DNA of 64,000 nt from an uncultured Poribacteria bacterium (GCA_951812525.1 OX638316.1:4458506-4522505); one strand, 5' to 3'. Counted from the stretch's first letter, positions 1,582 through 25,470 are shown. The notes: a model not told the origin generated them from the letters alone. Numbers and translations: made by a program.

Positions 1582-1588
1582 GAATCGT

Positions 1589-1811
1589 CGAGGTTAGAAT
1601 GCAGATCGCATGAATCAGAATCAGAATCAACGGTATGAAGCCCGTGTGGCTTCACCGGGTATTCATGCCGTGAATAAAAATCAACGGTATGAAGTCCGTG
1701 TGGACTTCACCGGGTATGAATGCCTTATGGCATTCAGAATCAACGGTATGAAGTCCGTGTGGACTTCACCGGGGCATGAACCGGGGCGAGTACGCCACAT
1801 AACCTCGCCTA
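1589..1811. repeat. Composite hairpin array inside a family-A REP-like element
   Basis: The outer ends match each other as an inverted repeat (CGAGGTTA at 1589, TAACCTCGCC at about 1800). They are the halves of the short family-A hairpin seen elsewhere in the window. Between them lie repeated units of about 45-50 bp starting AATCAACGGTATGAA, each carrying a small perfect hairpin: GAAGTCC-GTGT-GGACTTC twice, GAATGCC-TTAT-GGCATTC, and a GAAGCCC/GGCTTC variant. The arms differ between units but stay complementary. A second array with the same flanks is at 3458-3680. A 73-codon frame can be read across it but is only repeat sequence. Confidence 0.85.
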
Positions 1812-1841
1812 TCATACGAAACACAAGGTAGAGGAATTAAG

Positions 1842-2951
1842 ATGCCTTTTAACACAAAGTCCCTATTCTCCTTACGGGGTTGGCTATTTTATGCAGAAGC
1901 GTTAGCACTAATTGGCTTTGTCGTACTTGCGGCACTGTATATTCGGCGAGGGAGTGCTGACCCTGAACCACCGCCTCTGTCGCAGGTAGGCACATTTATT
2001 GAAAAAGCGGATGTGCTCTTTGAGAAGCAGGATCTCGTTGATGCTGCACTTTTCTATTGGCAAGCACTGCAAGCGTTAGAAACGAGCAGTGAAGATCAGA
2101 GCGTCGCAATAAATGGTAGATCCCAATCGAGTTCGGAGGTTCGTCTGCACGCGAATCTACGCATTGCGGAGATTTATTCACACAGCAGCTGGCTGAAAGA
2201 TGCCAAGGCACGCCTTGAACACGCTGCACGCATTCAACCTGAACATTCTGGCGTTCGTCTTTTACGCGGTAAACTGTTTCGCGATGAAGGCTTACTTAGC
2301 GAAGCAACGGCGGAGTTTCTCTCAGTTCTCAAACAGGACCCGCATCACGCCGAAACACACTATCTTCTCGGTGTCCTGTATCAGGGGAGCAAGCAATATA
2401 AATCAGCGGCAGAATCCTATAGTAACGCAATCGAAAATGATCCAGATTTGAGAGAAATTTCCTCAGAAAAAGCACCCATCGGTATCCTTGCGCGGCTTCA
2501 GCTGTCAAGGACATACGCCAGAATGCTTCAGGATTATCAGTTCCTTGATCGGGAATTCACCGACGCCGATTTAGCTGATGTTATCAGATTTGAATCGGAG
2601 GCGATTCGCTTATTGGAAGAAGCACATAAAAAGTATCCAGAAATGGACGAAGTGGTGAACGATCTTGTCCGTCTGTTGTTTGCCCGTGCGTCTTCACTTG
2701 AGCGGCAGGATATCGAAACGCGTCAGTACGCAGATGCGCTTCAAGTCTACGAACGTATTGTAGAACTCGATCCGCAAGAAGTTCGCGCATTGGAACGGAT
2801 GGGTGAGATTTATGCCAGTTTCCTTGGTGATAAGGTGTCTGCGCTGGAGATGTACCGAAAGGTGTATGAGATTGAACCACATCCGACTGTCTTAGCGAAT
2901 GTAAAATCGCTTGAGGAGGATGTCGCCGCTGAGATGGCATCGGAAGAGTAA
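1842..2951 (+). CDS. Membrane-anchored TPR protein
   Basis: A 369-residue protein with one N-terminal membrane segment (about residues 14-35, LFYAEALALIGFVVLAALYI), then a soluble region of tetratricopeptide repeats. Clear TPR helices include LRIAEIYSHSSWLKDAKARLEHAARIQP, the next repeat ending VLKQDPHHAE, and LQVYERIVELDPQEVRALERMGEIYA. TPRs bind other proteins, so this is probably a periplasm-facing or cytoplasmic scaffold; no catalytic motif is visible. The ATG start has a Shine-Dalgarno GAGGA six bases upstream. It follows dsbD on the same strand across the repeat array; a role with dsbD in cytochrome c assembly is possible but not shown. The specific function is unknown. Confidence 0.8.
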   Translation: MPFNTKSLFSLRGWLFYAEALALIGFVVLAALYIRRGSADPEPPPLSQVGTFIEKADVLFEKQDLVDAALFYWQALQALETSSEDQSVAINGRSQSSSEVRLHANLRIAEIYSHSSWLKDAKARLEHAARIQPEHSGVRLLRGKLFRDEGLLSEATAEFLSVLKQDPHHAETHYLLGVLYQGSKQYKSAAESYSNAIENDPDLREISSEKAPIGILARLQLSRTYARMLQDYQFLDREFTDADLADVIRFESEAIRLLEEAHKKYPEMDEVVNDLVRLLFARASSLERQDIETRQYADALQVYERIVELDPQEVRALERMGEIYASFLGDKVSALEMYRKVYEIEPHPTVLANVKSLEEDVAAEMASEE

Positions 2952-2958
2952 AACAAAA

Positions 2959-3030
2959 GGCCGATGAGAGGATTTGAACCTCCGACCTACTGATTACGAA
3001 TCAGTTGCTCTTCCACTGAGCTACACCGGC
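2959..3030 (-). tRNA. tRNA-Thr (anticodon CGT)
   Basis: On the minus strand the acceptor arm GCCGGTG pairs with CATCGGC (one G-T pair). The D arm is GCTC/GAGC, the anticodon stem ACTGA/TCAGT encloses loop TTCGTAA, and the T arm is GGAGG-TTCAAAT-CCTCT with a terminal mismatch. The anticodon CGT reads ACG (Thr). The CCA end is not encoded; the base after the acceptor stem is C, unusual for a threonine discriminator. It lies 31 bases downstream of tRNA-Phe on the same strand and was probably co-transcribed with it. Confidence 0.93.
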
Positions 3031-3061
3031 TTAGCAAACTATTACGATTAAAAAGAAAAAA

Positions 3062-3134
3062 TGCCGAGAGGCAGAATCGAACTGCCGACACATAGATTTT
3101 CAGTCTACTGCTCTACCGACTGAGCTATCTCGGC
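3062..3134 (-). tRNA. tRNA-Phe (anticodon GAA)
   Basis: On the minus strand a full cloverleaf is visible: acceptor GCCGAGA with TCTCGGC and discriminator A, D arm GCTC/GAGC, anticodon stem GTAGA/TCTAT with loop CTGAAAA, and T arm GGCAG-TTCGATT-CTGCC. Anticodon GAA reads TTC and TTT. CCA is not encoded. It is the upstream member of a two-tRNA pair with tRNA-Thr. Confidence 0.95.
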
Positions 3135-3457
3135 ATTAGGCTATATAATGATACCATAAAACGGTAGGAATGTCAAGTTTTTTTGAAATGTTGATAGGGT
3201 CATTCAGTTTGCCAATAATTTATATCTGGACGCCCGAACTTGTTCGGGACAAGGCACGTAACCCGAATAAATTCGGGCATCCGTCAACAGGAATCCTTCA
3301 CATAAGTAACCCTATTTCTTAAAACTAAATGACCCTAAAATGTTGAGGCTATCAGTTTTCAGAGGAATAGCAATCAACGGTCTACAGTCCGGAAGGGGTT
3401 TAGCACTATAGAACGGCATGTGTATAGGGGTCGTTTTGGCATGAGATAAAAAAAGAA
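3135..3457. repeat. Gene-free stretch with two adjacent covarying hairpins (3233-3248, 3262-3277)
   Basis: No coding sequence is seen. Two short perfect inverted repeats lie 13 bases apart: CCCGAAC-TT-GTTCGGG and CCCGAAT-AA-ATTCGGG. They differ at one base of each arm and at the loop, and the arm change is compensated. GTCATT(C/T)AG-like flanks around them suggest one mobile hairpin unit. The rest holds nothing recognisable. Confidence 0.6.
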
Positions 3458-3680
3458 GGCGAAGTTAGGAATGCAGGTCGCATGAATCAGAATCAGAATC
3501 AACGGTATGAATGCTTTATAGCATTCACCGGGTATGAAGCCCGTGTGGGCTTCACCGGGTATTCATGCCTTATGGCATGAAAAATCAACGGTATGAAGTC
3601 CGTATGGACTTCAGAATCAACGGTATGAAGCCCGTGTGGGCTTCACCGGGGGTCGAGTACGCCGCAAAACTTCGCCTACC
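3458..3680. repeat. Second composite hairpin array in a family-A element
   Basis: Outer ends are GGCGAAGTTAGGAATGCAGG on the left and AAAACTTCGCCTACC on the right; both outer arms carry the same G-to-A / C-to-T change relative to GGCGAGGTT, so the outer stem is still paired. Inside are GAATGCT-TTAT-AGCATTC, GAAGCCC-GTGT-GGGCTTC (twice), GAAGTCC-GTAT-GGACTTC and a CATGCCTTATGGCATG unit, each in the AATCAACGGTAT...ACCGGGTAT frame. It shares left and right flanks with 1589-1811 but has a different unit order. Confidence 0.85.
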
Positions 3681-3697: not shown

Positions 3698-3718
3698 GGC
3701 GAGGTTAGAAACCTCGCC
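3698..3718. repeat. Short family-A hairpin
   Basis: Perfect inverted repeat GGCGAGGT-TAGAA-ACCTCGCC without the usual trailing CTAC. It is the simple form of the element that is expanded just upstream at 3458-3680. It lies 43 bases beyond the 3' end of dnaN, so it could also act as a processing or termination hairpin. Confidence 0.75.
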
Positions 3719-11753: not shown

Positions 11754-12701
11754 GTGCACAATCACAGTCACGACCATCACCACGATCACGGCGATGGGCA
11801 CGCGCATAGCCACCAGACACACCTCCAGAAGAAATTCAAGTTTGCTGTGCTTATCACGTTTTGCGTCTTCCTCGGCGAACTCATCGGGGGTATCTGGTCG
11901 GGTAGTTTAGCACTGTTAAGCGATGCGGCGCACGTGATGTCGGACGTTTTCTCGCTGGTGATTAGTTGGTTGGCGATTTATCTCTCAACCCGTCCGGCGA
12001 CTGCTTCTCGAACATACGGATACCACCGCGCAGAGGTTTTTGCGGCTTTTATCAACGGTGTGACGCTCATTGGGATCTCGGGTTGGATCTTCTACGCAGC
12101 GTACCAACGGTACATGGCACCAACGGAGATAAAAGTGGAAGGGATGTTCATTGTAGCATGCCTCGGCTTCGCAGGAAACCTTCTCATCTTATGGAAGCTG
12201 CACGGTGAGAGTCACGGAAACCTGAACGTCCGGAGCGCGATGCTCCATGTCATAGGGGATACGCTCTCCTCGGTCGCTGTTGTCATTGGTGGCGCGATTA
12301 TCTACTGGACGGGATGGTATCCGGTCGACGCGTTGCTGAGTTTCCTTATCGGTGGGATTATTGTGATCGGTGCGGTGAATGTTACGCGGGAAGCGGTGCA
12401 TATTTTGCTCGAAAACTCACCGCGGAACGCCGATGCAGAGACCGTCGCTGCGCATCTTCGGGGTTTAGATCCGGTCAAAGATATTCACGACCTGCACATC
12501 TGGTCGCTGTGTTCCAACTATTGTGCGCTGAGTGCGCATGTCGTGGTTGACGAAAATACAACCTTAGCCCCGGATCATATCCTTGAAGAGATTAATGCCG
12601 AATTGCAAACACATTTCGGCATTAGCCATACCACCCTACAACTTGAACAGATAGCGTGTGCACAAGCCGGAAACCTCCTGTGCAATGCGCAACACTCATA
12701 G
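11754..12701 (+). CDS. Cation diffusion facilitator (CzcD/ZitB-like Zn2+ or Co2+ exporter)
   Basis: Proton-driven metal exporter of the inner membrane. A GTG start at 11754 opens a histidine-rich N-terminus (HNHSHDHHHDHGDGHAHSH) typical of zinc CDFs. About six membrane helices follow. The transport-site residues are DAAHVMSD in helix 2 and HVIGD in helix 5, the His/Asp set linked with zinc preference. A cytoplasmic C-terminal domain carries DIHDLHIWSL. A GGGGA lies upstream of the start. The gene ends 15 bases from the convergent ferritin-like gene. Confidence 0.92.
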   Translation: MHNHSHDHHHDHGDGHAHSHQTHLQKKFKFAVLITFCVFLGELIGGIWSGSLALLSDAAHVMSDVFSLVISWLAIYLSTRPATASRTYGYHRAEVFAAFINGVTLIGISGWIFYAAYQRYMAPTEIKVEGMFIVACLGFAGNLLILWKLHGESHGNLNVRSAMLHVIGDTLSSVAVVIGGAIIYWTGWYPVDALLSFLIGGIIVIGAVNVTREAVHILLENSPRNADAETVAAHLRGLDPVKDIHDLHIWSLCSNYCALSAHVVVDENTTLAPDHILEEINAELQTHFGISHTTLQLEQIACAQAGNLLCNAQHS

Positions 12702-12716
12702 CCACATGCAAACACT

Positions 12717-13259
12717 TTAGATGTGTTCTGCTTGCAGACGATGTGCTTTACGAATCACTTCAGGATCCCTCGCAAACCTCTGTGTTGCTTTTACTAACCC
12801 ACCTACATGTGATGTCATGTCCTTCTCCACCTGTACAATCCGGTCCATCAGATAGGGCTGATTGCTCTGCTCAATCGCTTTTCTCATGATAGAGAGGAGG
12901 TACATATAGATGGCATCCGCCTCGCTTCCCTCAATTGCAATCGCAATCGCAAAAGCCTCATCGAGCGAGATATCCCCACTGCTGACCTTCCGTTCATGTG
13001 CATCCAGTGCGTCTGTGATCTGCTGGACTGGGATATCCGCGAACTCGATTACAGGCGAATCAATTCCGAAGGTATCAACGCACAAAGCCCTTCCAAAATC
13101 GACGAGAATATGGTGTTGCCATTCTTCTGTGCTCATCTGCTCCCAAAATCGTGCGATCCGTTCATCAACGTTCCCTAAACGCAACGAGAGAGAGGCGTAG
13201 AGTTTAGCTTGCCGCAGTTCAATGTCTTGACAAAGATCAAAGAGTTCTCCGAGTGTCAA
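12717..13259 (-). CDS. Ferritin-like (rubrerythrin-type) helical protein
   Basis: A 180-residue, almost entirely helical protein. It carries carboxylate/histidine patterns expected for a four-helix di-iron bundle: an early Glu in DIELRQAKLY, EEWQHH (E-x-x-H), a third-helix Glu in AIEGSEADAIY, and a last-helix Glu/His in VEKDMTSHV. The last pair is spaced more widely than the canonical E-x-x-H, so metal binding is probable but unproven. It starts at TTG with GGGAGG five bases upstream. It converges on the CDF exporter gene. Possible roles are iron or peroxide handling. Confidence 0.65.
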   Translation of the reverse strand: MTLGELFDLCQDIELRQAKLYASLSLRLGNVDERIARFWEQMSTEEWQHHILVDFGRALCVDTFGIDSPVIEFADIPVQQITDALDAHERKVSSGDISLDEAFAIAIAIEGSEADAIYMYLLSIMRKAIEQSNQPYLMDRIVQVEKDMTSHVGGLVKATQRFARDPEVIRKAHRLQAEHI

Positions 13260-21770: not shown

Positions 21771-21793
21771 GCGAGGTTAGAAACCTCGCCTAC
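21771..21793. repeat. Family-A REP-like hairpin
   Basis: GCGAGGTT-AGA-AACCTCGC followed by CTAC. It sits between two minus-strand genes, 18 bases past the end of the ABC exporter gene downstream of it in transcription. On the minus strand it reads GTAG then the hairpin. Confidence 0.8.
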
Positions 21794-25430: not shown

Positions 25431-25470
25431 TGCAGATCGCATTTAGTCGAGTACGCCACAAAACCTCACC
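25419..25470. repeat. Family-A element with intermediate-length loop
   Basis: GGCGAGGTTAGAATGCAGATCGCAT joined to GTCGAGTACGCC and ACAAAACCTCACC. These are the same left and right flanks as the two large arrays (1589-1811, 3458-3680), but with no inner hairpin units between them. It looks like an unexpanded form of the composite element. A further hairpin ATTATGC...GTATAAT follows at 25505-25525, with CTCGCCTACC beyond it. Confidence 0.75.

Follow-up and report, generated by a model that had tools for sequence, protein, structure and literature searches.

Introduction

Among the described systems closest to the hairpin arrays studied here are the REP sequences, which include subfamilies that differ from each other in complementary residues of the stem, and which have been found inserted within palindromes in A. 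variabilis, T. roseum and H. neapolitanus (PMC3733652). In the organelle DNA of Volvox carteri, short non-coding intergenic palindromes are often nested and then form larger composite repeats (PMC2670323). The GC clusters of yeast mitochondria, e.g. GC42, are mobile and merging and carry AG or ACT repeats at their flanks (PMC4478555), and fungal double-hairpin elements are attributed to Paquin et al. 2000 in a later article (PMC5910586). In view of REPs with complementary stem subfamilies and in palindromes (PMC3733652) and of nested palindromes (PMC2670323), the view of the initial annotation that no described element shows the pattern reported below was too strong. A search of the literature found no publication on such elements in Poribacteria. 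In organelle genomes, nested palindromes without an established mobiliser have long been puzzling, and the case presented here is bacterial.

The window, i.e. the whole stretch of 64,000 nucleotides that was analysed (G000:C1:4458506-4522505), lies within the 5.06-Mb single-contig genome of a Candidatus Poribacteria, a group of sponge bacteria. Its two hairpin arrays are probably (with a probability of roughly 0.7) nested mobile palindromes, in which short hairpin units lie within a second insert, termed module 2, and module 2 within a GTAG-tagged REP hairpin.

Anatomy of the two arrays

Both arrays are found where the initial annotation had placed them, at 1589-1811 and 3458-3680. Array 1 occupies a spacer bounded by a DsbD-like gene and a TPR-like gene, and array 2 a spacer bounded by a tRNA-Phe gene and dnaN, the names of the flanking genes being presumed from our reading of the translations. 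Within a constant frame, array 1 carries three and array 2 five perfect hairpins with an 8-bp stem and a 4-nt loop, the loops in the two arrays being GTGT, GTAT and TTAT. Besides these eight, the window holds one imperfect hairpin and one with arms ~100 nt apart. The stem versions and loops listed initially are thus all present, but the version TTCATGCC/GGCATGAA (3562-3581) had been overlooked, and the 7-bp stem ascribed to every unit holds for the eight perfect hairpins but not for the first unit of array 1 (1637-1653, GAAGCC-CGTGT-GGCTTC), which lacks the seventh pair. Both arrays are nested in a longer stem, which likewise covaries (1587-1595/1801-1809 and 3458-3466/3668-3676). As single-stranded DNA, array 1 folds with -55.1 kcal/mol (z -8.1) and array 2 with -58.2 kcal/mol (z -8.4), energies equalled by 0 of 200 dinucleotide shuffles in either case, while a search of the window against Rfam returned two tRNAs and nothing else. 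The features are the following.

Array 1:
1587-1595, minus strand: outer stem arm A of the REP (GTCGAGGTT), pairing with 1801-1809 except for one T.C mismatch
1599-1611, plus strand: 5' hairpin part of module 2, ATGC-AGATC-GCAT
1625-1653, plus strand: unit 1, AATCAACGGTA followed by the imperfect 6-bp hairpin GAAGCC-CGTGT-GGCTTC
1662-1669, plus strand: 5' arm of an opened hairpin, TTCATGCC, with its partner at 1773-1780 and its closed form at 3562-3581
1679-1709, plus strand: unit, AATCAACGGTA and hairpin GAAGTCC-GTGT-GGACTTC
1717-1736, plus strand: hairpin GAATGCC-TTAT-GGCATTC
1738-1768, plus strand: unit, AATCAACGGTA and hairpin GAAGTCC-GTGT-GGACTTC
1773-1780, plus strand: 3' arm of the opened hairpin, GGCATGAA, paired in the DNA fold
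1785-1796, plus strand: 3' hairpin part of module 2, GGCG-AGTA-CGCC
1801-1809, minus strand: outer stem arm B of the REP (AACCTCGCC), followed by TATC
1690-1709, 1717-1736 and 1749-1768: the perfect 8-bp hairpins of this array

Array 2:
3458-3466, minus strand: outer stem arm A of the REP (GGCGAAGTT), fully paired with 3668-3676
3471-3483, plus strand: 5' hairpin part of module 2, ATGC-AGGTC-GCAT
3484-3496, plus strand: (GAATCA)n tail, putative 5' pieces left by units that self-insertion has opened, as suggested by the correlation of tail and hairpin numbers
3497-3527, plus strand: unit, AATCAACGGTA and hairpin GAATGCT-TTAT-AGCATTC
3535-3554, plus strand: hairpin GAAGCCC-GTGT-GGGCTTC
3562-3581, plus strand: hairpin TTCATGCC-TTAT-GGCATGAA
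3583-3613, plus strand: unit, AATCAACGGTA and hairpin GAAGTCC-GTAT-GGACTTC
3615-3645, plus strand: unit, AATCAACGGTA and hairpin GAAGCCC-GTGT-GGGCTTC
3651-3667, plus strand: 3' part of module 2, GGTCGAGTACGCCGCAA
3668-3676, minus strand: outer stem arm B of the REP (AACTTCGCC)
3675-3680, minus strand: CCTACC, i.e. GGTAGG on the minus strand, the GTAG tag of the REP
3698-3718, minus strand: short REP hairpin GGCGAGGTT-AGA-AACCTCGCC, insert-free and equivalent to an empty outer layer
3508-3527, 3535-3554, 3562-3581, 3594-3613 and 3626-3645: the perfect 8-bp hairpins of this array

In array 1 the arms TTCATGCC and GGCATGAA stand ~100 nt apart because other units occupy the loop between them, and a (GAATCA)n tail lies directly upstream of unit 1. 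The spacer of array 2 also holds a palindromic repeat pair of another kind, CCCGAACTTGTTCGGG ... CCCGAATAAATTCGGG, at 3231-3286 of the window.

Outer layer and module 2

In the window's own genome the outer stem occurs in four covarying versions (GGCGAGGTT/AACCTCGCC, GGCGAAGTT/AACTTCGCC, GGCGCGGTT/AACCGCGCC and GGCACGGTT/AACCGTGCC), and the outer-stem family of array 1 numbers ~22 copies. In nearly all copies that bear module 2 the 3' arm is followed by CCTAC(C), which is GTAG on the minus strand, and the TATC behind arm B of array 1 is a degenerate form of this minus-strand tag. Hairpins similar to the insert-free one at 3698-3718 are located at window positions 21771, 31069 and 55281. The genome also encodes a Y1 transposase of the RAYT type (G000:C1:2370012-2370482, positions 1453-1926 of locus L040), a protein of 157 aa which matches Y1_Tnp (1.7e-16) and PDB 4er8 (TnpA-REP), and whose gene has GGCACGGTT REP hairpins on both sides and module 2 copies together with a unit array upstream. 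Homologues of this RAYT (L319-L348, ~50-83% identity) are present in ~30 of the 59 family genomes; among those of 60% identity or more, most are likewise accompanied by GTAG hairpins, and the closer homologues in other genomes mostly have GTAG hairpins alongside, with stems GCGAGGTT, GTGCGGTT or GTTCGGTT of the ..GGTT type. The outer layer therefore shares with GTAG REPs the tag, a RAYT with cognate REPs and complementary stem subfamilies. Judged by these sequence features it is a REP/RAYT system, since it combines a GTAG tag and covarying stems with a RAYT gene situated between such REPs. A dispersed TCATTTAGTTTTAAGAA... repeat is found directly upstream of several REP composites (flanks of L020, L023, L027, L031, L074 and L079), which suggests that this genome has yet another family of intergenic repeats, as yet unnamed.

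Module 2, the middle layer, is a 31-32-nt insert (ATGCAGGTCGCATTTGGTCGAGTACGCCGCAA) in many REP copies of the same genome. Unit-free copies exist elsewhere in the genome (L066, L073, L074), some copies house hairpin units, placed between GCAT and GGTCGAG, and others lie outside REPs in contexts resembling GTCTGA|ATCGCGG (L082, L085). The layering in the window is accordingly one of unit stacks in module 2 and of module 2 in the loop of the GTAG-tagged REP hairpin. Another module 2 without inner units lies within a REP hairpin at window 25448-25464 (L076), and directly upstream of it there is an empty REP copy with duplicated flanks.

Distribution and insertion of the unit

The basic unit, (tail)AATCAACGGTA-[7-8 bp hairpin]-[A/C]CCG, is ~35 nt long. 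A frame-only pattern (AATCAACGGTA-N20-CCGG) was compared with its reversed form as a control in 59 genomes from the Poribacteria family to which the window belongs, and gave 1036 matches in 42 of these genomes against 0 for the control, which excludes a recurrence of the frame by chance. Among 26 other genomes of the phylum there was one match (G074), which forms no hairpin. A match in the window's own genome (L007) was rejected as a unit, being hairpin-free coding sequence, and viral carriers were rejected as the sole IMG/VR match contains no hairpin. Within a single genus, genomes carry between 0 and 188 copies. In other genomes the units occupy many unrelated host repeats, for which reason the possibility of the unit being a built-in component of a single REP family was rejected. 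The units are a spreading, selfish-looking DNA family with more than 1000 copies across related Poribacteria.

Filled and empty versions of host sequences illustrate the process. At L236, CGCGT[unit]GGCATTCC compares with [GT], the unit having opened the loop of the host hairpin GAATGC-GCGTGTG-GCATTC; at L228 and L122 the unit lies within the loop of another unit ([AT] and [GT], respectively); in module 2 at L058, GCAT[unit]GGTCGAG compares with [TT]; and at L094 the insertion point, GCCCCTC^GGGGC, adjoins intact tandem copies of its own target. Further comparisons were obtained at L190, L193 and L206. Under stricter criteria 34 filled/empty pairs remain, none of which represents an orthologous site where the difference is cleanly a single unit; most compare different copies of a host repeat (two candidate orthologous pairs with a difference of ~40 bp were not clean). 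In 32 of the 34, 0-3 host bases have been lost, and there is no duplication. The inserts have a ragged 5' end (N0-10 before AATCAACGG) and a fixed 3' end, CCG. Host sequence resumes with GG in 33 of the 34 pairs, a proportion inflated by the search pattern itself, which ended in CCGG for most loci; where retrieval imposed no GG condition, GG follows the unit at 19 of 30 loci. These comparisons show the unit to be an insert, which enters whole, usually directly before a host GG and with the loss of 0-3 host bases beside it. A precise 3' junction, combined with a ragged 5' junction and missing target bases, resembles the outcome of target-primed copying.

A sister unit, AATCAAC[A/G]C..-AATGC-GCGTGTG-GCATT, was observed at L078, L070, L098, L178 and L236. 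It likewise starts with AATCAAC and ends before GG, and its arms covary (AATGC/GCATT versus AAATAC/GTATTT). REP loops also take another insert, GTTTTTGC..GGGTGTTTC (L042 site 1, near 12487-12729, L178 and L236), which itself bears the sister unit at GC^GGG.

Target choice and growth of the arrays

Of 95 solitary insertions that differ in their flanking sequence, 28 have flanks that form a perfect stem of 5 bp or more, compared to 6.0 expected and to a maximum of 14 in 1000 shuffles of the flanks, and stems of at least 7 bp occur in 10 of the 95 compared to 1.2 expected. The test starts at the host GG, as justified by the filled/empty pairs; a looser one, with its start behind CCGG, showed less enrichment (14 versus 3.9 expected, for stems of at least 6 bp). 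By inspection, about eight unrelated host palindromes contribute to the stems found. The preference for hairpin loops is real but partial, since at ~70% of the solitary insertions the flanks form no perfect stem of 5 bp or more; tandem repeats such as GGATTTnCAGGATTT are the targets of other insertions.

Several filled/empty pairs capture an insertion at the unit's own GG (AATCA[AC]^GGTATG) or at its 3' GG, and the former leaves AATCA to the left and a hairpin to the right. Arrays arise because units insert into each other and into other hairpins, and self-insertion at GG leads to the prediction that AATCA tails and hairpins rise together. The mean number of hairpins is 1.08, 1.42 and 1.86 for 0, 1 and 2 tails, respectively (Spearman 0.47, p 4e-14, n=229). 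Array 2 fits this rule of growth with three AATCA copies, followed by three hairpins ahead of the start of the next unit. An origin of the tail repeats by simple slippage is weakened by this joint rise of tails and hairpins. At L089, however, tails outnumber hairpins: with five tandem AATCAAGG before the unit and two or three hairpins after it, this locus breaks the rule of one tail for one hairpin.

Candidate mobilisers

One tentative possibility is that the units are passengers of a RAYT/IS200-type Y1 (HUH) transposase, which would recognise the hairpin on single-stranded DNA and insert it in hairpin loops; just as tentatively, REP, module 2 and unit could all be substrates of one enzyme family. 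Such an origin would be consistent with the RAYT gene adjoining REPs, module 2 copies and a unit array, with the occurrence of Y1_Tnp in 39 of the 42 unit-bearing genomes, and with palindromes and loop targets, which suit an HUH enzyme acting on single-stranded DNA. The unit, however, has no GTAG tag, and no correlation of its numbers with Y1_Tnp or the L040-like RAYT was seen. Among the 59 family genomes, unit presence is not associated with Y1_Tnp (Fisher p 1.0), and the L040-like RAYT is found in 24 of the 42 genomes with units and in 7 of the 17 without (Fisher p 0.39); this absence of correlation led to the rejection of either as the sole mobiliser. Moreover, one genome has 12 Y1_Tnp and no unit (G056), while in another with 26 units (G018, 94% complete) no Y1_Tnp was found. 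A ragged 5' junction and a loss of target bases are also not typical of IS200/IS605 insertion. With regard to the replication strand, unit orientations are mixed in two single-contig genomes, in which GC skew, taken at 20 points, was noisy.

Covariation of the stem arms

In 199 frame-matched units the seven tested pairs are free of mismatches in 167, with 15 different perfect stems, while 21 units have one mismatch and 11 have two or more. The initial annotation, which held that the arms differ but always pair, was therefore right about the covariation but not about the 32 units with mismatches. The check it proposed, collecting genomic copies by frame and testing arm covariation, yielded 606 Watson-Crick cells out of 712 in 89 distinct hairpins, as against 467 +/- 7 after shuffling, and 91.5% Watson-Crick pairs in register, as against 8-37% when the partner is slid by 1-3 positions, counts that come from related sequences and hence do not represent independent events. 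The covariation of the arms is real and compensatory, and it is therefore the hairpin shape that is being kept. Neighbouring stems differ and yet each pairs because units enter as complete hairpins and the arrays collect different stem lineages. The choice originally offered, between selection on structure and template-switch correction, is borne out as regards compensatory change, but it missed the main feature, an insert that is spread over a whole bacterial family and that builds arrays by entering hairpins and other units.

It is rather unlikely that the covariation reflects template-switch (quasi-palindrome) correction, in which one arm is copied into the other, rather than selection on mobility. 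Mismatched intermediates are indeed uncommon, and some stem changes affect several positions at once (TGAATGCC to TTCATGCC), as such copying would produce. The 21 units with exactly one mismatch, on the other hand, imply that arms do mutate independently, and correction alone leaves insertion, nesting and spread unexplained.

Orthologous sites and the RNA reading

Both arrays are absent from the orthologous spacers of L042 and L044 (dnaN protein identity 94% and 88%), and array 2 is absent from that of L043 (93%); in these comparisons, as in that of the L043 unit, the spacers have diverged and absence is all that they convey. The array 1 spacer of L042 holds a different REP with a different insert, and in eight more distant genomes the site has spacers of 54-209 bp versus 264-292 bp in the window. 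Conversely, the L043 unit is missing from ten orthologous spacers, the window's own among them. On the plus strand, single-mismatch units comprise 16 G.T and 22 A.C (the latter being G.T on the minus strand), and as these counts are about equal, selection on one RNA strand is unsupported.

A conserved RNA function at the array sites is unlikely, since close relatives lack the arrays and single-mismatch units have no strand bias. The wider proposal, that selection maintains the units where they are as structured RNAs or as structural elements within transcripts, is very improbable. Strong compensatory covariation and low folding energy are what would be expected of structured RNA, but conservation at orthologous sites is lacking, in close (dnaN 88-94%) as well as in more distant relatives, the Rfam matches are limited to tRNAs, mismatches have no strand preference, and a copy number that varies from none to 188 within one genus is ill suited to it; a conserved RNA was rejected on the grounds of orthology, Rfam and strand bias. 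Spread by target-primed, LINE-like reverse transcription of a small hairpin RNA is scarcely credible, for although one precise and one ragged junction are seen in target-primed reverse transcription too, units do not correlate with RVT_1 (Fisher p 1.0, 59 family genomes), and this domain is absent from G000 and G021 (both single contig) and from the drafts G045 and G011, the last three with 81, 105 and 54 units, respectively, which makes reverse transcription by the RVT_1 family unlikely and led to the rejection of a reverse transcriptase as mobiliser.

Proposed mechanism

Under the preferred reading of nested mobile palindromes, the REP/RAYT system, with the RAYT at G000:C1:2370012-2370482, would spread the composite around the genome. 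The unit may enter by target-primed copying at single-stranded hairpin DNA, whereby a 3' end ...CC would pair with the GG beside a donor unit, copy the donor and rejoin imprecisely. The arms would covary as only units that still form a hairpin keep spreading, and also as each array probably collects units of different stem lineages. Each self-insertion leaves one AATCA remnant to the left and one hairpin to the right, so that arrays grow inwards, and in array 1 later units have opened the TTCATGCC/GGCATGAA hairpin by inserting into its loop. Rather improbably, the unit could be a selfish hairpin that needs neither a transposase nor a reverse transcriptase of its own, the copying of a donor unit being primed by an exposed loop that ends in GG; the associated idea that the cell's own replication or repair machinery copies the donor, and hairpins in this way breed inside hairpins, is similarly speculative.

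Comparison with known systems

The >1000 copies in 42 genomes, the empty and filled sites, the precise and ragged ends and the 15 interchangeable stems allow the rules of insertion to be read directly from the sequence. Covarying arms are usually read as evidence of an RNA function, but they can also develop in mobile DNA that orthologous sites lack.

Compared to GTAG REP/RAYT systems (PMC3733652, PMC2817692, PMC8266576), the outer layer is alike in its GTAG tag and complementary ..GGTT stem versions, and in being intergenic and dispersed with a RAYT gene between such hairpins. The inner unit differs in that it has neither a GTAG nor a CGTC tag and is bounded by AATCAAC... and ...CCG, targets many unrelated hairpins as well as itself, is ragged at one end, and shows no significant association with the presence of a RAYT. 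The Volvox palindromes resemble the units in being inserted in other palindromes (here L122, L228, L236 and L094), but they belong to eukaryotic organelles, their loops are mostly TAAA/TTTA, and a GG junction rule or precise and ragged ends are not seen reported in the available part of that account (PMC2670323). There is also a likeness to the yeast GC clusters (PMC4478555) and the fungal double-hairpin elements (PMC5910586), which are ~40-nt mobile hairpins with a constraint on the stem, compound clusters and a mobiliser that is not established. The AG/ACT flanks of the yeast clusters, however, resemble a target duplication, whereas the Poribacteria units lose 0-3 bases (32/34), and the stems of the yeast clusters hardly vary, while those of the Poribacteria units change in compensated pairs.
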